A DNA stretch of 64,000 bases from contig NZ_JAKMCR010000001.1 of the NCBI RefSeq assembly GCF_022662175.1, forward strand, positions 620,001 to 684,000. The letters run 5' to 3'. The notes under the pieces were generated by a model. It worked only from the letters and a program-made list of their open reading frames with translations. It ran no database searches and was not told the origin of the DNA. The stretch's first letter is position 1. Each line of letters opens with the position of its first letter. The position numbers and the translations under genes are program-made. Positions 2,484 to 40,916 of the stretch are shown here, in pieces. Source of the stretch: Aestuariivivens marinum (lineage in GTDB: Bacteria; Bacteroidota; Bacteroidia; Flavobacteriales; Flavobacteriaceae).

Positions 2484-3242
2484 ATGCAAATTCCCGAAGG
2501 CAAAAAAATATACTTCGCTTCCGATAATCATTTGGGCGCACCAACGCGTGAAGACTCCTTACCTCGCGAAAAAAAGTTTGTGGCATGGCTCGATTTGGTC
2601 AAAAAAGACGCTGCTGCTATTTTTTTGTTAGGTGATTTGTTTGATTTCTGGATGGAATATAAAAAAGTGGTGCCCAAAGGGTTTACCAGAACCTTAGGGA
2701 AACTGGCTGAAATTAGTGATTCTGGCATTCCCATCTACTACTTTGTGGGGAATCACGATCTTTGGATGAACGGTTATTTTGAGGAAGAACTTAATATTCC
2801 CGTGTACCATAAACCCAAGGAATTCACCTTTAACAATAAGACTTTTTTTATAGGTCATGGTGACGGTTTAGGTCCAGGGGATAAAGGTTATAAACGCATG
2901 AAAAAAGTGTTTACAAATCCGTTTTGTATATGGCTGTTCCGTTGGTTACACCCCGATTTAGGTGTCCGTTTGGCACAATACCTCTCTGTTAAAAACAAAC
3001 TTATTTCAGGCGATGAGGATATCAAGTTTTTAGGCGAGGATAACGAATGGCTGGTACACTATTGCAAACGTAAATTAGAGAATAAACACCGGGATTATTT
3101 TGTGTTTGGTCATAGACACTTACCTCTAAAAATAGACCTTAACCAAAACTCCAAATACATTAACCTTGGTGATTGGATTGGCTACTTTACTTATGGCGTT
3201 TTCGATGGCACAACTTTTGAACTTAAGGAATATTCAAACTAA
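2484..3242 (+). CDS. lpxH: UDP-2,3-diacylglucosamine diphosphatase LpxH
   Basis: A 252-residue calcineurin-like metallophosphoesterase that hydrolyses UDP-2,3-diacylglucosamine to lipid X in lipid A synthesis, acting at the cytoplasmic face of the inner membrane. The dinuclear metal site is complete: D14 and H16 (SDNHLG), D51 (LLGDLFDFW), N90 and H91 (VGNHDLW), H125 (IGHGDG) and the C-terminal GHRH motif. Length fits LpxH/LpxH2 enzymes of Bacteroidetes. It is followed 31 bases later by a secreted esterase on the same strand, with which it may be cotranscribed. A related generic phosphoesterase is the only real alternative. Confidence 0.85.
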   Translation: MQIPEGKKIYFASDNHLGAPTREDSLPREKKFVAWLDLVKKDAAAIFLLGDLFDFWMEYKKVVPKGFTRTLGKLAEISDSGIPIYYFVGNHDLWMNGYFEEELNIPVYHKPKEFTFNNKTFFIGHGDGLGPGDKGYKRMKKVFTNPFCIWLFRWLHPDLGVRLAQYLSVKNKLISGDEDIKFLGEDNEWLVHYCKRKLENKHRDYFVFGHRHLPLKIDLNQNSKYINLGDWIGYFTYGVFDGTTFELKEYSN

Positions 3243-3273
3243 GTCAATAACCCCCATTTGAACATTTTGATTT

Positions 3274-4203
3274 ATGGCTTTTAGATGTATATTATTAATG
3301 CTGTTTTTAAAGGTTTACACAGGCTTTTCTCAAAACAAAGATTTTCTTATCCATGATAACTACAAGCGAAGCTACATTACCTATCTTCCCAAAACCTATT
3401 CTATAGACAAACAACACCCCTTAATTTTAGTGTTGCACGGCGGTGGTGGTACAGCAACCCAAATTATGCAAAGCACTAAAGGATATTTTAATGTATTAGC
3501 TGATAAAAATGGGTTTATTGTTGTTTATCCCAACGGCGTAAAAAAGTCATGGAACGATAACCCTAAACGGGACACTAACAGCTTTTCTAGAAAGAAAAAT
3601 ATAGATGATGTAAGTTTTATAAAGAACCTGATCGAACTGCTCGAATTGAAATATTCCATAAATCCGAAAGCGGTTTTTGCTTGTGGCATATCGAATGGCG
3701 GATTAATGTCCCAGACCCTAGCCATGGCGTTACCTGATAAAATTAAAGCTGTTGGCATGGTCGCTTCTAATTTTGGTAGCATTCAAATTGAAGAATCAAA
3801 AAATGTACAGCCATTTTCCATCTTATTTATTCATGGCACTGCCGATCCAATATTCCCCTATCAAGAAGTGGACATTCAAGTGTTTAATAAAAGTAGAGGT
3901 CATGTTCTGGGCATTGATAAAAGCATTACTTATATGTGCAATCTTAACGGAAATGAAAAGCTTCCTATAAAATTATCTATAAAAAACAAAGCGTTAAATG
4001 ATAATTGCACAAGTGAACACTGCATTTTCCCCAACCCTAAAAACCCCTATTTAAAAATTGAACTGATTAAGGTTACCAATGGTGGCCACACATGGCCTGG
4101 AGCCAAAGAACAGCGATTCATTTCAAAAGTTGTTGGCAATACCACGCAAGATTTTAATGCTTGCGATAAACTTTGGGCTTTCTTTAAAAGCATTATTGAT
4201 TAA
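3274..4203 (+). CDS. Secreted alpha/beta-hydrolase, PHB depolymerase/feruloyl esterase-like (LpqC family)
   Basis: A 309-residue secreted esterase. Residues 1-20 form a signal peptide ending GFSQ. The mature part has the oxyanion motif LHGGGG (residues 55-60), the nucleophile S140 in GISNGG, acid D191 in HGTADPIFPY and H272 in NGGHTWPG, so the catalytic triad is complete. This arrangement is that of the poly(3-hydroxybutyrate) depolymerase/LpqC/feruloyl esterase group; true substrate is likely a plant or algal ester rather than intracellular polyester, but that is inference. Its stop codon overlaps the stop of the convergent MFS gene by four bases, leaving no room for a terminator between them. 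Confidence 0.8.
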   Translation: MAFRCILLMLFLKVYTGFSQNKDFLIHDNYKRSYITYLPKTYSIDKQHPLILVLHGGGGTATQIMQSTKGYFNVLADKNGFIVVYPNGVKKSWNDNPKRDTNSFSRKKNIDDVSFIKNLIELLELKYSINPKAVFACGISNGGLMSQTLAMALPDKIKAVGMVASNFGSIQIEESKNVQPFSILFIHGTADPIFPYQEVDIQVFNKSRGHVLGIDKSITYMCNLNGNEKLPIKLSIKNKALNDNCTSEHCIFPNPKNPYLKIELIKVTNGGHTWPGAKEQRFISKVVGNTTQDFNACDKLWAFFKSIID

Positions 4204-5465
4204 CTCTTTTCGTGTGATTCCAAATCTTCCGTCAAATCCAATTTTCGAAACGATGGCGACACCAAGCCTGTTGTTATTACCGTAATTAATGTCATCGTGC
4301 CTCCAAAAACAACGGCTGTTACCGTGCCCATAAGTTTGGCGGTAAGTCCACTTTCAAAAGCACCCAATTCGTTAGACGACCCCACAAACATTGAATTTAC
4401 AGAAGATACCCGCCCGCGCATATCGTCTGGGGTTTTTATTTGTAAAATGGTTTGACGAATGACCATAGAAACACCATCTGTCATCCCACTAAAAAACAGA
4501 GCCAATAGAGATATCCAAAATACCGAGGACAGTCCAAAAACAATAATACATACACCAAACCCGAAAATCGCTGCTAATAGTTTGATGCCTGCGTTTTTAC
4601 TAATGGGGATGTAGGCTGTGATAAGCATGGTTATAAATGCTCCAACGGCGGGTGCTGCCCTTAAAATACCAAATCCCTCACTCCCCACCTTTAGAATATC
4701 CTGGGCATAAACAGGTAATAAAGCAATGGCTCCACCAAACAGTACGGCCACCATATCCAAAGTCATGGCTCCCAAAATAGCTTTGGTCTTAAATACAAAA
4801 CTCAAGCCTTCTTTTAAACTTTGCACAATTGGCTCCCCAATTTTGGGATTAAGTATAGGTTTTCGTTTTATCTGTATTAGAATGATTAAAGACAGTATAA
4901 CCAGTCCAAAAATGATACAAAGTGACCAGTGTACACCAATCCACCCAATGGCAACACCCCCAAATGCGGGCCCTAAAACGGCCGCCATTTGCCACGTTGA
5001 ACTATTCCAAGTCGCCGCATTAGGGTAAATTTTTTTAGGTACAATTAGCGCCACTAACGAAAAGATAGTTGGACCAAAAAACGATCGTAAAAACCCCCCA
5101 AAGAAAACAAAGGCATAAATGCAGTACAATATGGCTTTGGTAGACCAACCTGAAACAACCTTATCCCAGGTCAATAAAAATAATCCCAAGCTTATTAATG
5201 AAAACGCAGCGATACAGGTTATCAATAAATTACGTTTTTCCTTTTGGTCTACAATATGTCCGGCAAATAAAGCCATGGTAAAGGCTGGAATAATTTCCAA
5301 AAGACCAATAATACCGAGCGATAAGGGGTCTTTTGTTAAACTATACACCTGCCATTCGATAACTATAAATTGCATAGACCAAGCAAATACCAACACAAAA
5401 CGTACCAATAAGAAAATATTAAACTCCCTTATACGCAAGGCAGCATATGGATCGGTCTTTAACAT
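4200..5465 (-). CDS. MFS transporter, enterobactin-exporter (EntS)-like
   Basis: A 421-residue major facilitator superfamily permease with about twelve hydrophobic helices and the MFS motif-A-like loop (AGHIVDQKEKRNLL) after helix 2. It belongs to the MFS_3/EntS-type group of drug and siderophore exporters. It starts with ATG at 5465, three bases after the recJ stop, so it is very probably in one transcription unit with recJ and the upstream PNGase F-like gene. Substrate unknown. Its 3' end overlaps the convergent esterase gene by four bases. Confidence 0.8.
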   Translation of the reverse strand: MLKTDPYAALRIREFNIFLLVRFVLVFAWSMQFIVIEWQVYSLTKDPLSLGIIGLLEIIPAFTMALFAGHIVDQKEKRNLLITCIAAFSLISLGLFLLTWDKVVSGWSTKAILYCIYAFVFFGGFLRSFFGPTIFSLVALIVPKKIYPNAATWNSSTWQMAAVLGPAFGGVAIGWIGVHWSLCIIFGLVILSLIILIQIKRKPILNPKIGEPIVQSLKEGLSFVFKTKAILGAMTLDMVAVLFGGAIALLPVYAQDILKVGSEGFGILRAAPAVGAFITMLITAYIPISKNAGIKLLAAIFGFGVCIIVFGLSSVFWISLLALFFSGMTDGVSMVIRQTILQIKTPDDMRGRVSSVNSMFVGSSNELGAFESGLTAKLMGTVTAVVFGGTMTLITVITTGLVSPSFRKLDLTEDLESHEKS

Positions 5466-35011: not shown

Positions 35012-35024
35012 GTGGTCCCACCTG
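35012..35024 (+). repeat. Left attachment site core (attL)
   Basis: GTGGTCCCACCTG, identical to positions 40842-40854 at the tRNA 3' end. The sequences diverge on both sides, so strand exchange took place within or at the edge of these 13 bases. Confidence 0.8.
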
Positions 35025-35036
35025 AACCACTTGAAT

Positions 35037-35076
35037 TTTTACTTTATTTTACTCTATTTTATTGTATTTTAGCTTG
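35037..35076 (+). repeat. 10-bp phased AT-rich tandem repeat near attL
   Basis: Four consecutive units TTTTACTTTA, TTTTACTCTA, TTTTATTGTA and TTTTAGCTTG share the first four to six bases with exact ten-base spacing, about one helical turn. Such phased T-tracts bend DNA. It lies between the att core and the integrase arm repeat, where accessory bending is expected. Confidence 0.45.
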
Positions 35077-35147
35077 TTAAAGCCCATAAACAGGACATTT
35101 TACAGTTAAGAGAAAACAGGTGAAATTAAACGAAATTAAAAAAATTC

Positions 35148-35167
35148 GTCCCCTGATTCGTCCCCTA
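35148..35167 (+). repeat. Left copy of 20-bp internal direct repeat (candidate integrase arm site)
   Basis: The 20 bases are two tandem versions of GTCCCCT separated by GATTC, and are identical to 40768-40787. Here the preceding bases extend the first unit, so ATTCGTCCCCT occurs twice in tandem. It lies 124 bases right of the left att core and just before the integrase promoter, so integrase binding could also repress its own gene. Confidence 0.6.
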
Positions 35168-35183
35168 TAAATATAATTTATCT

Positions 35184-35191
35184 TACATTTG
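35184..35191 (+). promoter_or_regulatory. Candidate -7 box for the integrase gene
   Basis: TACATTTG matches TAnnTTTG but ends only four bases before the integrase ATG, which would make the transcript leaderless or nearly so. It lies seventeen bases after the arm-type repeat. Confidence 0.35.
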
Positions 35192-35195
35192 AAAC

Positions 35196-36425
35196 ATGGG
35201 AAAAGCAAAATTTATACTCAAAGAACCTACTTCCAAAACGGATACGCTAATCTACTTAATTTTTAGATATCAATATCAAAGATTCAAGTATTCAACTGGC
35301 GAAAAAATAAATCCAAAATTCTGGAATTCTACCTCGCAAAGAGTAAAGGCTACAAAACAATTTACTGAACATCCCGAATTTAATGCTAGATTAGATAAAA
35401 TTCAAAATGGCATAAATAACGCTTTTAGAAAATTACTCAATGATGGCATTCAACCAAATAACACAAACCTAAAAGAAGCTTTAGAAATTGAATTATCGGA
35501 TAATATCGTAAAGCCTAAAAAATTATCTCTTTTTAAATTCATTGAAGATTACATCGAAGAAAGCAAACTCAATAAATCCAATGGAACTATTAAGGTTTAC
35601 AATACCACATTTACATACTTAAAAGAGTATGCTAAAAAATATAAACCTATAGACTTTGAATCTATTACTTTAGAGTTCTATAATCATTATTTAGGTTTTC
35701 TAAAAAAGCATAATCTATCGAATAATACAGTAGGTAAACACATAAAAACTATCAAGTCTTTTATGAATGAAGCTACTGAAAGAGGACATAACACAAACCT
35801 AGAATTTAGAAATAAGCGTTTCAAAACAATTAGGGAAGAATCAGATAGCGTTTATTTAACTGTTGACGAATTAAAAAAGATTGAAAAACTAGATTTGAAA
35901 GCTAGTCCGAGATTAGAAAAAGTTAGAGATTTATTTTTAGTAGGCTGTTATACTGGTTTAAGATTTTCAGACTTCACCCAAATAAACCCCGAGAATATAG
36001 TCTCCAGCAATACTGTTATTGAAATAAGAACTAAAAAAACAGGTCAAAGGGTATCTATTCCACTACATAAAACGGTAAGGACTATTCTTAAAAAATATAA
36101 AAACAAACTGCCTAAAGCCTACACTAATCAAACCATGAATGATTATCTAAAGGAAGTTATAAGCTTGGCAGGGATTAAAGAAAAAATTGAAACTACAATT
36201 ACAAAAGGCGGTAAAGTAGTAAAAAAGCCAATTCCAAAACACAAATTAGTTTCTACCCATACCGCTAGACGAAGCTTTGCCACAAATCTATATTTAGCAG
36301 AAGTCCCAACTATTTCAATAATGAAAATAACAGGACATCAAACAGAGCGTTCATTTTTACAGTATATTCGCGTTTCTCAAAAGGAAAATGCAGATAAATT
36401 ATTAACGCACCCATTTTTTAACTAA
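35196..36425 (+). CDS. Tyrosine recombinase/integrase
   Basis: A 409-residue tyrosine recombinase that would integrate and excise the element. Domains in order: N-terminal arm-DNA-binding domain (about residues 5-95), SAM-like core-binding domain (about 110-205) and catalytic domain (about 215-405). The active-site residues are R256 (GLRFSDF), a lysine at about 280 (RTKKTGQ), H355 and R358 (HTARRSF), H381 (TGHQTE) and the nucleophile Y390 (FLQYIRV). The architecture is that of Bacteroidetes integrases of tRNA-targeting elements. It is adjacent to attL and transcribed into the element. Its stop overlaps the next ATG by one base. Confidence 0.93.
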   Translation: MGKAKFILKEPTSKTDTLIYLIFRYQYQRFKYSTGEKINPKFWNSTSQRVKATKQFTEHPEFNARLDKIQNGINNAFRKLLNDGIQPNNTNLKEALEIELSDNIVKPKKLSLFKFIEDYIEESKLNKSNGTIKVYNTTFTYLKEYAKKYKPIDFESITLEFYNHYLGFLKKHNLSNNTVGKHIKTIKSFMNEATERGHNTNLEFRNKRFKTIREESDSVYLTVDELKKIEKLDLKASPRLEKVRDLFLVGCYTGLRFSDFTQINPENIVSSNTVIEIRTKKTGQRVSIPLHKTVRTILKKYKNKLPKAYTNQTMNDYLKEVISLAGIKEKIETTITKGGKVVKKPIPKHKLVSTHTARRSFATNLYLAEVPTISIMKITGHQTERSFLQYIRVSQKENADKLLTHPFFN

Positions 36426-37072
36426 TGAACATAAAATCTTTTGAAGAGTTCAAAACTGAATTTGAAACTGAACTAAATCAAATACCTCAAACCCACAAAA
36501 AGAACTTTATCGAAAATGAAATTAAAGAAGTTGAGAACTACATAAGACATGAACAGACAAAAAATATTCATGGTAATTTTTTTAAGAACAAGAGCCTTAT
36601 AAACACTTCTAATGCTTTTTCTGTTTTTAAATTAAGCATCTCTCCATTGGCAAGAAAAGGATTTTCTGATTCATTTAATGATTATACACTTAAAGGAATA
36701 ATTAATCAAGAAACGGAGTGTTACAATCAAGCTTATCATTTCGGAAAATATTATCTATGGCTAATTGAGTTAAAAGAAGAATTAAGTAAAAAACCAAAAG
36801 CTAAAACACCTCAATTAACTCACAAACAAAAAATACTTGCCTTGCATTATTATGGAGTTGATTTAAACAGATACGATAATGTAAAAACGGCTAAAATATT
36901 ATCTCAAATTTTAGGTGTTGGAGAAGAAAACACAAGAAAATATCTCTCTTATGTCTCAGCAGGTAAAAATGATGTGAGGACAAAACAAAATTTAGAGAAA
37001 GTTTCTCAATTATTTGAAAATACAGGAGTTATAGAAATATCGAATAAAATAAAATTAGATTTAGAAAAATAA
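36425..37072 (+). CDS. Element protein of unknown function, translationally coupled to the integrase
   Basis: A 215-residue soluble protein, rich in K, E and N, starting on the last base of the integrase stop codon (TAATG). The N-terminal half is helical with no recognised motif. The C-terminal part LTHKQKILALHYYGVDL followed by KTAKILSQILGVGEENTRKYLS looks like a helix-turn-helix region, similar in style to proteins that accompany integrases in Bacteroidetes elements, including RteC-like regulators. A DNA-binding role in excision or regulation is an inference. Confidence 0.6.
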   Translation: MNIKSFEEFKTEFETELNQIPQTHKKNFIENEIKEVENYIRHEQTKNIHGNFFKNKSLINTSNAFSVFKLSISPLARKGFSDSFNDYTLKGIINQETECYNQAYHFGKYYLWLIELKEELSKKPKAKTPQLTHKQKILALHYYGVDLNRYDNVKTAKILSQILGVGEENTRKYLSYVSAGKNDVRTKQNLEKVSQLFENTGVIEISNKIKLDLEK

Positions 37073-37084
37073 AATAAAGGTTGT

Positions 37085-37114
37085 GGCTACCACAGCAACT
37101 ACCATACGGTAGCC
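37085..37114 (+). other. Hairpin between the integrase operon and the HTH gene
   Basis: GGCTACC and GGTAGCC form a perfect seven-base stem with a sixteen-base loop. There is no T run after it, so it is not a classic terminator; it could be an operator, a processing site or a weak terminator. Confidence 0.4.
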
Positions 37115-37159
37115 CTCATTTCATATTTGCACCAGTTAAAACACAAAACAAATGCATTT

Positions 37160-37468
37160 ATGAAAAACATTCAAATTAACAATTTCAACATCGCTGACTT
37201 AGAACAGGCGATAAAAAATGTTCTAAATGAAAATATCTTTAATGGTGTTCTAGATAACATTAATAAAGACATCTCTGTAAATATGTATTCAAGAGAGGCA
37301 ACGGCAGATTTGCTTTGTGTCTCACTACCTACACTAAACGAATGGACAAAACAAGGTATTATCCGAGCGTTTAGAATAGGAGGTCGCGTCCTTTACAAAT
37401 TAGAGGATATAAACGATGCATTAAAAGAGGTTAAAACTTCAGTAAAGAGAGGAGGTAAATCATGTTAA
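37160..37468 (+). CDS. Helix-turn-helix DNA-binding protein (excisionase/MerR-like)
   Basis: A 102-residue protein with a helical N-terminal half and a C-terminal winged-helix domain of the excisionase/HTH_17 type: YSREATADLLCVSLPTLNEW, then KQGIIRAFRIGGRVLYKLEDINDALKEV. This pattern (recognition helix, then G-R-V-x-Y-K wing) is standard for recombination directionality factors and element regulators in Bacteroidetes. I start at ATG 37160, not at the upstream ATG-like codon at 37127, because it gives the usual short N-terminus. It overlaps the next small gene by seven bases. Confidence 0.75.
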   Translation: MKNIQINNFNIADLEQAIKNVLNENIFNGVLDNINKDISVNMYSREATADLLCVSLPTLNEWTKQGIIRAFRIGGRVLYKLEDINDALKEVKTSVKRGGKSC

Positions 37469-37677
37469 AAAAGAAAAATGATTACTCCGTTATTGTTTTC
37501 CTAGAAAATGAAAAAAAGCCTAAAAAATGGTCTTATGTGCATAAGCTAAACGGCTTTTCAATGTTCCTATCTAAAAAGCATCCTAGTTGGCAGTATATGA
37601 ATGTATACAACCGTAGAGAAGGAACCTTTATGAAACAAATTAAGAAAGGCGATTTCGTCCCTGCTTTCCTAGAGTAG
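37462..37677 (+). CDS. Small element protein of unknown function (71 aa)
   Basis: A 71-residue basic protein whose ATG lies inside the end of the HTH gene (seven-base overlap), implying coupled translation. It is rich in K, W, Y and F, with the segment KKWSYVHKLNGFSMFLSKKHPSWQ and no membrane helix. No family is recognised. A candidate terminator overlaps its end, closing the HTH/small-protein transcript. Confidence 0.5.
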   Translation: MLKKKNDYSVIVFLENEKKPKKWSYVHKLNGFSMFLSKKHPSWQYMNVYNRREGTFMKQIKKGDFVPAFLE

Positions 37678-37695
37678 GGAGCCTTTCTTTTTTTT
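37645..37695 (+). terminator. Probable terminator after the HTH/small-protein pair
   Basis: AAAGGC pairs with GCCTTT and, inside, TCCCT pairs with AGGGA across a seven-base bulge; eight T residues follow. The stem begins inside the small gene's coding end. Confidence 0.5.
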
Positions 37696-37760
37696 AACCT
37701 TTAAAAATACTTACTCAATCAATCAACCTTTAGTAACAACCTTTAGTAAATAACCTTTTA
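37696..37760 (+). repeat. Iteron-like direct repeats upstream of the Rep gene
   Basis: AACCTTTAGTAA occurs twice exactly (37725-37736 and 37738-37749), with related copies AACCTTTAAAAA at 37696 and AACCTTTTAA at 37752. The last three copies have 13-14-base spacing. Their place just before an initiator gene is typical of Rep-binding iterons or an operator. Confidence 0.5.
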
Positions 37761-37792
37761 ATGGTATTTATTAATGTACAACGATTCAGATT

Positions 37793-38632
37793 ATGATAGT
37801 TAAGAATACATACGGAACAAGTGTTGCTTTTACAACTAGCAGATACGGTAAAGCACCAAAACATGAGTTTACAGGTTCAGCATTACAACGTAAAAAGCAA
37901 GAACCTAAAAAGAATACAAAAGCAAAAAAAAAAGAGAGTAAGGGCAAGGAGAAAAAGGAGCGCTCCTTGTCCAGGCGTTCGAAACAAAAAATTCGTAAAA
38001 AATTAACCTGTTTTGCTAGGTGTCATAAAAAATTAAGCTTTTTAACCCTAACGTTTTTAAACACAGTAACCGATGAACAAGCCATTAATTTACTAAGGAA
38101 GTTTATAGACAATGTTAAAAAAAGAAGTAAGGATTTTCAATATATCTGGGTAGCGGAAAGACAGACTAAAAATGATGCATTTAAGGGAAATGTACATTTT
38201 CACATGATAACTAATAAATATTGGAAAATCGAAAAATGGTGGAATTATTGGATTAATCTTCAAATAAAGAATGGCATTACTCCAAGAAAAAAAGACTTTA
38301 AGCCCTCCTCTGCTTTTGATGTTAAACAATTAAACTCAAACAATATTAGGTCTATTGCTTCTTATGTTACAAAATATGTCACCAAGAATGATGCGAAGTT
38401 TAAGTGCCAAGTATGGAACTGTTCAAAACATGTTTCAGAACTTTACACCGATTTTTATACTACAACGGAGTTTACAGACCAATTTAAGAGGTTAGGTGCT
38501 GTTAAAAAAGAGTTGACCAACACGGACAGAGAAAGCCCCGTAATTAACGTTAAAATGATTGATTTAAACAGGAATACATTACCTATGTATAAAAGGCTTG
38601 ATGACAAGAATAAAAATACTCTTAAAAAATAA
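37793..38632 (+). CDS. Two-tyrosine HUH endonuclease, rolling-circle replication initiator-like
   Basis: A 279-residue HUH-superfamily protein. Motif I is FLTLTF (residues 83-88), motif II is H135-F136-H137 (GNVHFHM), binding the divalent metal, and motif III is Y191-VTK-Y195-VTK. Two tyrosines four residues apart is the arrangement of phiX174 gpA, microvirus VP4 and related initiators, which nick an origin and alternate the two tyrosines during rolling-circle replication. The N-terminus (about 30-75) is extremely lysine-rich. No helicase domain is present. The upstream iteron-like repeats support an origin role. A relaxase or Y2-type transposase function is a possible alternative. Confidence 0.75.
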   Translation: MIVKNTYGTSVAFTTSRYGKAPKHEFTGSALQRKKQEPKKNTKAKKKESKGKEKKERSLSRRSKQKIRKKLTCFARCHKKLSFLTLTFLNTVTDEQAINLLRKFIDNVKKRSKDFQYIWVAERQTKNDAFKGNVHFHMITNKYWKIEKWWNYWINLQIKNGITPRKKDFKPSSAFDVKQLNSNNIRSIASYVTKYVTKNDAKFKCQVWNCSKHVSELYTDFYTTTEFTDQFKRLGAVKKELTNTDRESPVINVKMIDLNRNTLPMYKRLDDKNKNTLKK

Positions 38633-38709
38633 CTTGTTTACTATGAGAATCACTTTGTAAGAGTTACCTTTATGTGTCAAAATTCAATTTCCAAATCATA
38701 GAAACTCAA

Positions 38710-39591
38710 ATGGAGATACCAAAATTTCATGAAACTTTTATTCCAATACTTAAGGTTTTGAAAAATGGCGAAACTTTACAGGCTAGAGAAATGTATCAAT
38801 TAGTCATAGATCAATTTTATTCTGAATTAACCAAAGAGCAATTAAATCAAAAAACAAAAAGCGGTGATAGATTAATCATTAATAGAATAGCTTGGGGTAA
38901 ATCATACTTAAAAAAAGGTGGGTTTATAGAATTTCCGAAAAGAGGCATTGTAAAAATAACCGAAAAAGGTAAAAACAGCATTGATTCAAAACTTACTTTA
39001 AAACAAGTAGAAAGTTCAGATAATTTCTTAAATTTTTATAGCGAAGAGAACTCCAAAAAAGGGCAAGATGTATATGAGATATCAAACTCATCTCCTCAAG
39101 ATCTTATTGAAGAGGGTTTCAAATTAATTGATTCTCAAGTAAAAGAAGAATTACTAGAAAAACTAAAATCAATTGACCCTTTCTATTTTGAAAGAGTAAT
39201 TCTGATTTTACTTAAAAGAATGGGATACGGTGACTTTATCGAAACATCAAAAACAGGTGATGGTGGAATTGATGGGATAATTAATGAAGATAAACTAGGT
39301 CTTAATAAAATTTATATTCAAGCCAAAAGATATGGTGAAAATAAGGTTCGGGAAAAAGACATTAGAAACTTTATTGGTGCAATGAGTGGCGACACGCAAA
39401 AAGGAGTCTTCGTTACTACTTCGTCATTTGATTTAGGGGCAATAAAAAAAGCTAACGACGCTCACCATACAATAATTCTAATCGATGGGGTAAAACTGGT
39501 TGATCTGATGCATGAATACAACATTGGTGTTCAAGTAAAAAACACCTATGAAGTTAAAGAACTTGACAATGACTTTTTCGAAAGTGAGTAA
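38710..39591 (+). CDS. Mrr-family restriction endonuclease
   Basis: A 293-residue protein with an N-terminal winged-helix Mrr_N domain (about residues 1-90: IPKFHETFIPILKVLKNG, AWGKSYLKKGGFIEFPKRG) and a C-terminal Mrr_cat nuclease domain of the PD-(D/E)xK fold. Catalytic residues are E161 (DPFYFERV), D188 (GDGGIDG) and Q204-A-K206 (YIQAKRY). Mrr enzymes cut DNA carrying methylated bases (type IV restriction). I place the start at ATG 38710, which puts IPKFHE at the N-terminus as in the family; the GTG at 38674 would add twelve residues. It is first in a three-nuclease operon. Confidence 0.88.
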   Translation: MEIPKFHETFIPILKVLKNGETLQAREMYQLVIDQFYSELTKEQLNQKTKSGDRLIINRIAWGKSYLKKGGFIEFPKRGIVKITEKGKNSIDSKLTLKQVESSDNFLNFYSEENSKKGQDVYEISNSSPQDLIEEGFKLIDSQVKEELLEKLKSIDPFYFERVILILLKRMGYGDFIETSKTGDGGIDGIINEDKLGLNKIYIQAKRYGENKVREKDIRNFIGAMSGDTQKGVFVTTSSFDLGAIKKANDAHHTIILIDGVKLVDLMHEYNIGVQVKNTYEVKELDNDFFESE

Positions 39592-39601
39592 AACTAATTA
39601 A

Positions 39602-39925
39602 ATGCCAAACCGTTGGGGAATACCAAAACAAGTAGAAGAATTCGTAAAAAATAGAGATATCGAATGTGTTTATTGTGGTCAAGAGTTTTTAGACAATCCT
39701 ATATCACGTAAGAACAAACCGTCTTGGGAGCATATTGTGAATGATATCAGGATTAATGGAATAGATAATATTGCTGTTTGTTGTATGTCCTGTAATGCAA
39801 GTAAGGGAGCGAAAAATTTGGAAACTTGGCTTCAAAGTGACTATTGTAAAAGAAATAATATAACAGAAAAATCTGTTGCCAATGTGATAAAAGAAGCTAT
39901 AATAAACCCTCCTAAATTAAAATAG
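39602..39925 (+). CDS. Small HNH endonuclease
   Basis: A 107-residue HNH nuclease with a zinc knuckle. Visible are C22-x-x-C25 (CVYCG), H44 of the catalytic ββα motif (SWEHIV), and C61-x-x-C64 followed by NASKG (CMSCNASKG), the classic second half of the HNH domain. A stretch of basic residues follows. It starts ten bases after the Mrr stop and ends four bases before the EVE-HNH gene, so it belongs to the same operon. Its own target preference is unknown; it may be an auxiliary subunit. Confidence 0.8.
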   Translation: MPNRWGIPKQVEEFVKNRDIECVYCGQEFLDNPISRKNKPSWEHIVNDIRINGIDNIAVCCMSCNASKGAKNLETWLQSDYCKRNNITEKSVANVIKEAIINPPKLK

Positions 39926-39929
39926 CAAA

Positions 39930-40736
39930 ATGAGAACATTCCTATTCGCTTGGAATCCAAAAAAATGGAATTGGTCAACTCTCGAACAGAGTATTCAACA
40001 AATTGAACAAACAGGTCGAGCATCAGAAAAATGGAGCGTTATTAGTCACAAAAAAATTCAGCCCGGTGACAGAGCTTTTCTTATAAGGTTGGGAAAAGAG
40101 CCTAAAGGAATAATGGGGTCAGGATTTGTTGTTTCCCCTGTTTTTCTATCCCCTCATTGGGATGGCTCAGATAGGTTAGTTAACAGAGTAATGATTGACT
40201 TTGAAGTACTTCTAAACTCTGAAAAAGAGCCACTTCTAAATTTTGAAAAATTAAAAAATGGAAACTTACAAAAAGTCAATTGGACTCCTCAATCCTCAGG
40301 AATTGAAGTTAACAAGGTTGTTTCTGAAGAACTAGAAGCAGTTTGGTTTGAATTCTTAAATACGCAAAAAATTAGGCATAACCCATTTAAAGAGACTGAA
40401 GAACAAAAACAAAAAGTATATACTGAGGGAACTCCAAATCAAGTGTTAGTTACTAAATATGAACGGAATCCGTTTGCAAGAAAAACTTGTATAGAATATT
40501 ATGGCTTATCATGCTCAGTTTGTAAATTTAACTTTGAAGAAAGATATGGAGAATTAGGAAAAGGGTTTATACACGTACATCATTTAAAACAAATTGCCGA
40601 AATAGGGAAAAAGTGTGAAGTCAATCCAATTAAAGACTTACGACCTGTGTGTCCAAATTGTCATGCAATGATTCATAAACGAAAAACGCCATACTCAATA
40701 AATGAATTGAAAGAAAAAATTGAACTTACAGAATAA
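39930..40736 (+). CDS. EVE-HNH fusion, modification-dependent restriction endonuclease
   Basis: A 268-residue two-domain nuclease. Residues about 1-150 look like an EVE/PUA-fold domain (FLFAWNPKKWNW, KIQPGDRAFLIRLG, KGIMGSGFVVSP), a module that binds modified bases such as 5-methyl- or 5-hydroxymethylcytosine. Residues about 177-262 are an HNH nuclease with C195/C198 (CSVCKF), H217-H218 in HVHHLK and C241/C244 with H245 (CPNCHAMIH). EVE-HNH enzymes such as VcaM4I cut DNA with modified cytosines. It is the last gene of the operon with the Mrr and small HNH nucleases. Confidence 0.82.
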   Translation: MRTFLFAWNPKKWNWSTLEQSIQQIEQTGRASEKWSVISHKKIQPGDRAFLIRLGKEPKGIMGSGFVVSPVFLSPHWDGSDRLVNRVMIDFEVLLNSEKEPLLNFEKLKNGNLQKVNWTPQSSGIEVNKVVSEELEAVWFEFLNTQKIRHNPFKETEEQKQKVYTEGTPNQVLVTKYERNPFARKTCIEYYGLSCSVCKFNFEERYGELGKGFIHVHHLKQIAEIGKKCEVNPIKDLRPVCPNCHAMIHKRKTPYSINELKEKIELTE

Positions 40737-40767
40737 AATATCAACTACTAAATTAGATATAAATACT

Positions 40768-40787
40768 GTCCCCTGATTCGTCCCCTA
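40768..40787 (+). repeat. Right copy of 20-bp internal direct repeat (candidate integrase arm site)
   Basis: Identical over 20 bases to 35148-35167 and in the same orientation. It ends 54 bases before the right att core. In the excised circle the two copies would flank the joined att core on both sides. Confidence 0.6.
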
Positions 40788-40792
40788 GAACT

Positions 40793-40828
40793 AAAAAAGC
40801 CTCATAAATTCAACATTTACAAGGCTTT
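40793..40828 (-). terminator. Element-borne terminator serving the tRNA gene
   Basis: On the minus strand AAAGCCTTGTAAAT pairs with ATTTATGAGGCTTT (one mismatch region) and is followed by a T run. It lies just downstream of the tRNA on element DNA, replacing the original terminator now at 34973-35010. It may also stop leftward transcription from entering the nuclease operon. Confidence 0.65.
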
Positions 40829-40841
40829 ACAGGCTTAAAAA

Positions 40842-40854
40842 GTGGTCCCACCTG
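40842..40854 (+). repeat. Right attachment site core (attR), overlapping the tRNA 3' end
   Basis: GTGGTCCCACCTG, identical to 35012-35024. Twelve of its bases are the 3' end of the tRNA gene, so integration restores an intact tRNA. Confidence 0.8.
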
Positions 40855-40916
40855 GGCTCGAACCAGGGACTTTCTGATTATGAGTCAGATACTCTAACCA
40901 ACTGAGTTATAGGACC
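40843..40916 (-). tRNA. tRNA with CAU anticodon (Met, or Ile2 if lysidine-modified)
   Basis: A complete cloverleaf on the minus strand: acceptor GGTCCTA pairs with TGGGACC (one G-T), D-arm CTC-AGTTGGTTA-GAG, anticodon arm TCTGA-CTCATAA-TCAGA with anticodon CAT, T-arm CCTGG-TTCGAGC-CCAGG, discriminator A; CCA is not encoded. CAU anticodons read Met or, when C34 is modified by TilS, the Ile AUA codon. I cannot decide which from sequence alone. It is the integration target of the element to its left. Confidence 0.93.

Follow-up and report, generated by a model that had tools for sequence, protein, structure and literature searches.

A compact tRNA-targeted element of Aestuariivivens marinum belongs to an apparently undescribed Flavobacteriaceae family with exchangeable cargo

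Introduction

Integrative and conjugative elements (ICEs) of the pSAM2 type in actinomycetes target tRNA genes and combine an integrase and an excisionase with RepSA-type rolling-circle replication, and tycheposons are tRNA-targeted tyrosine-recombinase elements whose exchangeable cargo is mainly metabolic. In Vibrionaceae, the phage-inducible chromosomal minimalist islands (PICMIs) carry an integrase gene (int), a gene that overlaps int, a helix-turn-helix (HTH) regulator gene, a small gene, a replication gene, and variable genes including defence genes, with an average size of 6.7 kb (PMC10803314). Here we analyze an integrated element of Aestuariivivens marinum within a stretch of 64,000 nucleotides (the window; assembly GCF_022662175.1, contig NZ_JAKMCR010000001.1, positions 620,001 to 684,000). 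Compared with the int, alpA, and prim genes that mark a PICMI, the element has int and an HTH gene, and no primase family was found in any backbone gene. We conclude, with a probability of roughly 0.8, that it belongs to a widespread Flavobacteriaceae family of compact integrative elements that depend on a helper and carry a defence cassette open to exchange. The family is real and well delimited, and it is apparently undescribed; no description of it was found in the open-licence literature searched. Bacterial immunity is thought to be carried largely by mobile elements, and such carriers are little described in Flavobacteriaceae, which are dominant marine and freshwater bacteria.

Results

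Element boundaries and attachment sites

The initial annotation described a tRNA-targeted element of 5.84 kb with exact cores and arm repeats, and this description holds, with exact 13-bp cores at the tRNA-Met 3′ end and with paired arm repeats of which one right copy is degenerate. Other loci are cited by number (L019 and so on), with positions after a colon.

35012..40854, + strand: whole integrated element, attL to attR, 5843 bp, delimited by a 13-bp direct repeat with the tRNA 3′ end and by an empty site in congeners
35012..35024, + strand: attL core GTGGTCCCACCTG, identical to the tRNA-Met 3′ end
40842..40854, + strand: attR core GTGGTCCCACCTG, within tRNA-Met
40842..40916, − strand: target tRNA-Met gene (CAT), kept intact (ARAGORN)
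35144..35166, + strand: left arm pair ATTCGTCCCCTGATTCGTCCCCT, beginning 132 bp from the core start (23-element spacing comparison)
40764..40786, + strand: right arm pair (copies at 40764 and 40776), copy 1 degenerate, beginning 78 bp from the core
40794..40834, − strand: element-borne hairpin or terminator-like sequence downstream of the tRNA (read by eye)

The left copies of the 12-bp arm repeat ATTCGTCCCCT begin at 35144 and 35156. In the 23 complete elements compared, distances from the core are 130–132 bp for the start of the left arm pair and 77–78 bp for that of the right one, with the same spacing for tRNA-Met and tRNA-Asp targets, and because this spacing is nearly constant, the features of the element's attachment site (attP) are not due to chance. 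The core is GTGGTCCCACYTG in tRNA-Met elements, with one variant reading GTGGTCCCAACTG, and GCGGTCTGGACGGGACT in tRNA-Asp elements. L041 has an identical altered arm, ATTCCGCCCCT, at its two ends, as would be expected if one protein reads both. Judged by its sequence, this arrangement of cores and arms is that of a functional lambda-type attachment site. The GCC...GGC hairpin and T-run on the minus (tRNA) strand, which by eye are also present at the right ends of relatives, should act in place of the tRNA's own terminator. The locus thus has what generally defines a tRNA-targeted integrative element, namely a tyrosine integrase, cores that form a direct repeat at the 3′ end of a tRNA gene, and relatives in which the site is empty.

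Additional core or arm copies adjoin elements at L019:274, L020:2514, L033:6968, and L055:3398, which fits either elements inserted in tandem at one tRNA or relics left there. At L039:14037, in Polaribacter glomeratus, no tRNA gene follows the right core; the target may have been damaged, or the site may be a secondary one.

A conserved backbone with different cargo

The five backbone genes occur in the order int, unknown, HTH, small, and Rep, which is found in L019–L043, L047, and L048 with occasional gene loss or decay. The initial annotation proposed a search for this order with a listing of the cargo, and that search returned the backbone in the same order at 26 further loci in many Flavobacteriaceae genera, usually with different cargo. 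Family elements measure ~5.3–8.1 kb. The gene content first read from the element, consisting of an integrase, a coupled protein, an HTH protein, an HUH initiator with iterons, and three nucleases, is confirmed.

Rep relatives are present in 18 of 299 sampled family genomes, where 11 are full-length or nearly so with at least 73% identity. Close Int relatives (E≤1e-100) and full-length Rep are carried by exactly the same 11 of the 299 genomes, so we regard Int and Rep as an obligate pair. A collection of named genomes yielded 40 Rep loci, nearly all in Flavobacteriaceae, with 3 more distant ones in other Bacteroidota included in this number. Many genomes retain no more than Rep fragments (L049–L058), some adjoining an arm or a tRNA core, and these are decayed relatives.

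The element might spread mainly by natural transformation, or by chromosomal DNA being transduced on rare occasions, with the replicon merely stabilizing the excised circle. The absence of a transfer gene speaks for this route, as does one orthologous tRNA locus with conserved neighbours in several genera, but the strict co-occurrence of Int with full-length Rep and the near-invariant attP geometry argue for selection on an active cycle, and we consider this route quite improbable.

Empty sites and movement between genera

When the flanks of the window element are joined, the resulting sequence runs without interruption in two congeners, at L080:16892-17084 in G685 and at L075:8054-7869 in G219. 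These empty tRNA sites rule out a fixed locus, in agreement with the mobile element that was first proposed, and an intact backbone is present in just 11 of 299 family genomes. The initial annotation named two observations that would speak against it, a lack of related elements with this backbone and other cargo, or a locus fixed in all relatives, and neither was borne out. There is a very slight probability that the element is instead a prophage in decay or a defence locus fixed in the chromosome. Decay is indeed visible in some relatives (L037, L038, and L049–L058), but all eight genes of the window element are open, congeners have empty sites, no phage structural gene is present in the window element, and the cargo varies among members.

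Congeners L075, L076–L077, and L078–L080 have other insertions at the same tRNA-Met site, with distant integrases (26–29% identity) and extra att-like copies, and from these insertions and copies we consider the site to be a hotspot.

The clearest case of movement is between the window and a Tamlana element at the orthologous tRNA locus (L019). Fourfold-site identity between the two is 80% for int, 69% for the unknown gene, 65% for the HTH gene, 44% for the small gene, and 57% for rep, whereas five chromosomal genes next to the elements reach 22–38%, and no nucleotide similarity links the two cargoes. This contrast shows that the element passed from one genus to another when their chromosomes had already diverged, and that its cargo changed, and the fourfold-site identities rule out vertical inheritance with cargo loss for this pair. 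In the Int tree, the users of tRNA-Asp form one clade (support 100/100), but in the Rep tree they nest with the tRNA-Met elements L026, L043, and L047 (support 97/94), and from this conflict we conclude that integration and replication modules have been exchanged.

Replication initiator and origin-like region

37694..37792, + strand: origin-like region, AACCTTT iterons and then AATGGTATTTATTAATGTACAACGATTCAGATT, between the 71-aa gene and rep
37793..38632, + strand: HUH rolling-circle initiator (Rep), PF23343 (ORF2/G2P) E 7e-14, phrog_3419 E 7e-18

Rep has an HFH motif and a two-tyrosine YVTKYVTK motif, and its key residues are invariant in 30 relatives; its profile found no relative among solved structures. 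The iteron-like AACCTTT repeats upstream of rep recur in the aligned intergenic regions of relatives, and the block CAACGATTCAGATT (allowing ≤1 mismatch) is present in exactly one copy in 28 of the 28 members checked. The rep start codon is shifted in L037, L038, and L042 while the block is retained, so the conservation of the block is not due to coding. By sequence, the element therefore has the makings of a rolling-circle replicon, since its HUH initiator bears catalytic motifs and its origin-like block is conserved, and Rep would nick at the CAACGATTCAGATT block.

An HUH protein could also be a non-canonical relaxase, in which case the element would be an integrative mobilizable element (IME) that exits through a co-resident conjugation system. 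Rolling-circle initiators serve as relaxases in Firmicutes ICEs and initiator-related putative relaxases are encoded by Streptococcus IMEs (PMC5704250), and the spread between genera fits conjugation. However, a canonical relaxase, a coupling protein, and an oriT all went unrecognized, the two-His, two-Tyr signature of Rep is that of a replication initiator, and there is no full-length plasmid relative, which together make this explanation somewhat unlikely.

Integrase, putative excision gene, and other backbone genes

35196..36425, + strand: tyrosine integrase (Int), 409 aa, PF17293/PF13102/PF00589
36425..37072, + strand: 215-aa protein, all-helical model, start overlapping the int stop by 1 nt (TAATG)
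37160..37468, + strand: HTH_17/excisionase-like protein, PF12728 and phrog_66, TIGR01764 below its cut-off
37462..37677, + strand: 71-aa orphan protein, 7-nt overlap with the HTH gene, beta-beta-alpha-beta-beta model

Int consists of Arm-DNA-bind_5, SAM_5, and Phage_integrase domains and is 60–98% identical across the family. Its overlap with the 215-aa gene is kept in most relatives that have that gene, and the AlphaFold2 model of the 215-aa protein has a predicted local distance difference test (pLDDT) score of 82. The HTH protein is likely, from its profile matches, a recombination directionality factor and/or a regulator; its weak match to phrog_57 is limited to the HTH. Because relatives align from residue 12, the gene probably starts at 37160 rather than 37127. 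The 71-aa protein is strongly conserved among 30 sequences (model pLDDT 90) and is rare in the class sample, where it was found in 4 of 395 genomes, 2 of these by weak partial matches.

An open reading frame (ORF) of 100–136 aa recurs immediately 3′ of rep in L029 (3928-4290), L032 (4413-4805), L033, L035, L039, and L040, and is possibly an optional sixth backbone gene; the one that was checked, from L032, has no Pfam match.

Cargo

38674..39591, + strand: Mrr type IV restriction endonuclease (Mrr_N and Mrr_cat), PF04471 E 4e-33, PF14338 E 5e-23, PADLOC mREase_IV E 1e-59
39602..39925, + strand: small HNH nuclease, PHROG HNH/endonuclease VII profiles, E 1e-9
39930..40736, + strand: EVE-HNH nuclease, PF01878 and PF01844

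At the domain level, Mrr_N/Mrr_cat and EVE-HNH are those of type IV restriction. The EVE-HNH protein is a probable modified-base-dependent restriction enzyme, and the three nucleases together probably cut DNA with modified bases; for the term modification-dependent we go solely by the Mrr and EVE domains.

The initial annotation considered the cargo to be nuclease defence, and this idea extends to most of the family, with recognizable restriction or defence genes in at least 18 of 27 elements. A restriction, methylase, or defence profile match was obtained for the window, L020, L022, L023, L024, L027, L028, L029, L031–L037, L041, L043, and L048, and this tally of 18/27, which includes lone methylases and generic profiles and has no background rate alongside, is descriptive. 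The cargo includes a DpnII system (L022), a MutH/Sau3AI-type protein with a C5 methylase (L029), an OLD-like nuclease (L027), Tmn (L033), and type ISP with AbiJ (L037), as well as EcoRI-type methylases, methylase-only large proteins, and GmrSD. An EcoRI-type methylase cassette is common to L041 and L043, in opposite orientation and on different backbones. On the left side of int there is a second cargo slot, occupied by UDG-family proteins (L020, L047) or repeat-rich lipoproteins (L023, L026).

The Flavobacterium oncorhynchi element L034 encodes a retron-type reverse transcriptase and a PRTase-CE protein (2841-5225), likely a retron on the family backbone. The UDG-family proteins between attL and int (L020:2867-3598, L047:6629-7336) are possibly related to glycosylase-type phage defence, and the lipoproteins (L023:6916-7998, L026:6269-7351) are homologous and MORN/YwqK-like by eye. 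The cargo of L019, L025, L026, L039, and L040 belongs to no recognized family, and by position these genes are candidates for undescribed defence systems.

Phage, viral, and plasmid collections

Searches of 2.9 million viral contigs recovered neither a related Rep nor the arm pair or the origin block, and the Int profile retrieved only distant relatives there (32–44% identical); no related Rep was found among 50,697 phage records. Plasmid collections contained no full-length relative and gave only weak partial matches (≤31% identity) to small cryptic plasmids. With no structural gene and no Rep relative in phages or viral contigs, a prophage or an inovirus or microvirus remnant was rejected, and with plasmid matches that are weak and partial, so was an integrated plasmid. 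These absences weigh weakly against an autonomous phage or plasmid life, and they favour neither type of helper over the other. The arm-pair and origin patterns occur once each in the host genome, which gives no pointer to a helper that shares these motifs. As the initial annotation had it, no transfer, capsid, or packaging genes were recognized among the window element's proteins in Pfam and PHROG searches.

The element could be a strict phage satellite, for which a helper phage would induce excision and rolling-circle copying and then package the DNA, as for the Vibrio PICMIs, which a virulent helper phage mobilizes. The layout, size, and defence cargo match the description of PICMIs (mean near 6.7 kb), which are also without capsid-remodelling or recognized packaging genes and also use rolling-circle replication (PMC10803314). 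On the other hand, the proteins differ from those of PICMIs (an HUH Rep and no primase), the target is a tRNA gene and not fis, the spread across genera exceeds usual phage host ranges, and no related Rep is found in viral contigs or phage records, though satellites without viral genes would escape such collections. We place this explanation a little short of even odds. The broader proposal, that these elements are a new class of phage satellite, namely minimal tRNA-integrated islands of Bacteroidota that replace the primase with an HUH rolling-circle initiator, have no recognized packaging gene yet are packaged by helper phages, and form a family-wide, cargo-swapping anti-phage reservoir, is tentative and more probably wrong than right.

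Discussion

We favour a helper-dependent integrative element. The sequences show how the element is built, the geometry of attP, the origin-like block, the empty sites, the exchange of cargo, and the movement between genera, and we infer excision, replication, helper use, and restriction activity, in a cycle that would run as follows. Int would bind the paired arm repeats and carry out recombination between the 13-bp core and the 3′ end of tRNA-Met or, for one integrase clade, tRNA-Asp, and the tRNA would stay whole as the element brings its own terminator. Excision would be directed by the HTH protein, probably with the helical protein whose gene overlaps int. In the circle stage, the HUH initiator would nick the origin formed by the iterons and CAACGATTCAGATT to start rolling-circle copying. 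As no transfer or packaging gene was recognized, element DNA would exit the cell in a helper's vehicle, either a phage particle or a conjugation pore, and the host would be repaid by the exchangeable defence cassette.

Several results weigh against this helper-dependent, defence-carrying element. Most pairs other than the window and L019 have similar synonymous divergence in element and chromosome, so that recent transfer is demonstrated for that one pair and is elsewhere implied by patchy distribution and tree conflict. The 215-aa protein has no PDB fold match at E≤0.001 and no family match in profile searches, and the 71-aa protein likewise has no significant fold match and no profile family match. 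About one-third of the tabulated elements carry solely genes without a recognized defence family, and Fic and MORN-like proteins are among the family's cargo.

The fixed-spacing arm pair, origin block, and five-gene backbone make a recognizable signature with which elements can be counted and their cargo mined for new defence systems, and it also opens the question of how genera come to share elements that have no transfer genes.

Comparison with known systems

The element resembles the PICMIs in gene layout, small size, and the absence of capsid or recognized packaging genes (PMC10803314). It differs in using the 3′ end of tRNA-Met or tRNA-Asp where PICMIs use fis, in having an HUH Rep and an iteron origin where they have a primase, and in its Bacteroidota host. 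It is not a PICMI because the replication protein and the target differ, and a PICMI-like layout built from different proteins suggests that this minimal design has evolved more than once. The packaging or capsid-redirecting genes of phage satellites of the PICI/P4 type have no Pfam or PHROG match in the window element.

Streptococcus IMEs with rolling-circle-type relaxases are similarly small, with a tyrosine integrase, a rolling-circle replication-type initiator, and no transfer pore, but the initiator here is of family PF23343, no oriT or coupling protein is recognized, and the hosts are Flavobacteriaceae (PMC5704250). Elements of the NBU/Tn4555 type in Bacteroides share the phylum Bacteroidota, a tyrosine integrase, and extra proteins for excision (PMC5704250), but have canonical MobP relaxases, of which none is recognized in the window element. 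The window element has a weak RepSA match in the profile search; it differs from actinomycete ICEs in that their FtsK/TraB-type transfer gene is absent and in being far smaller. Tycheposons are set apart, by their description, in hosts, backbone, and type of cargo. The kind to which the element belongs, a helper-dependent integrative element carrying defence genes, is a known one, and what is apparently new is this family of Flavobacteriaceae.

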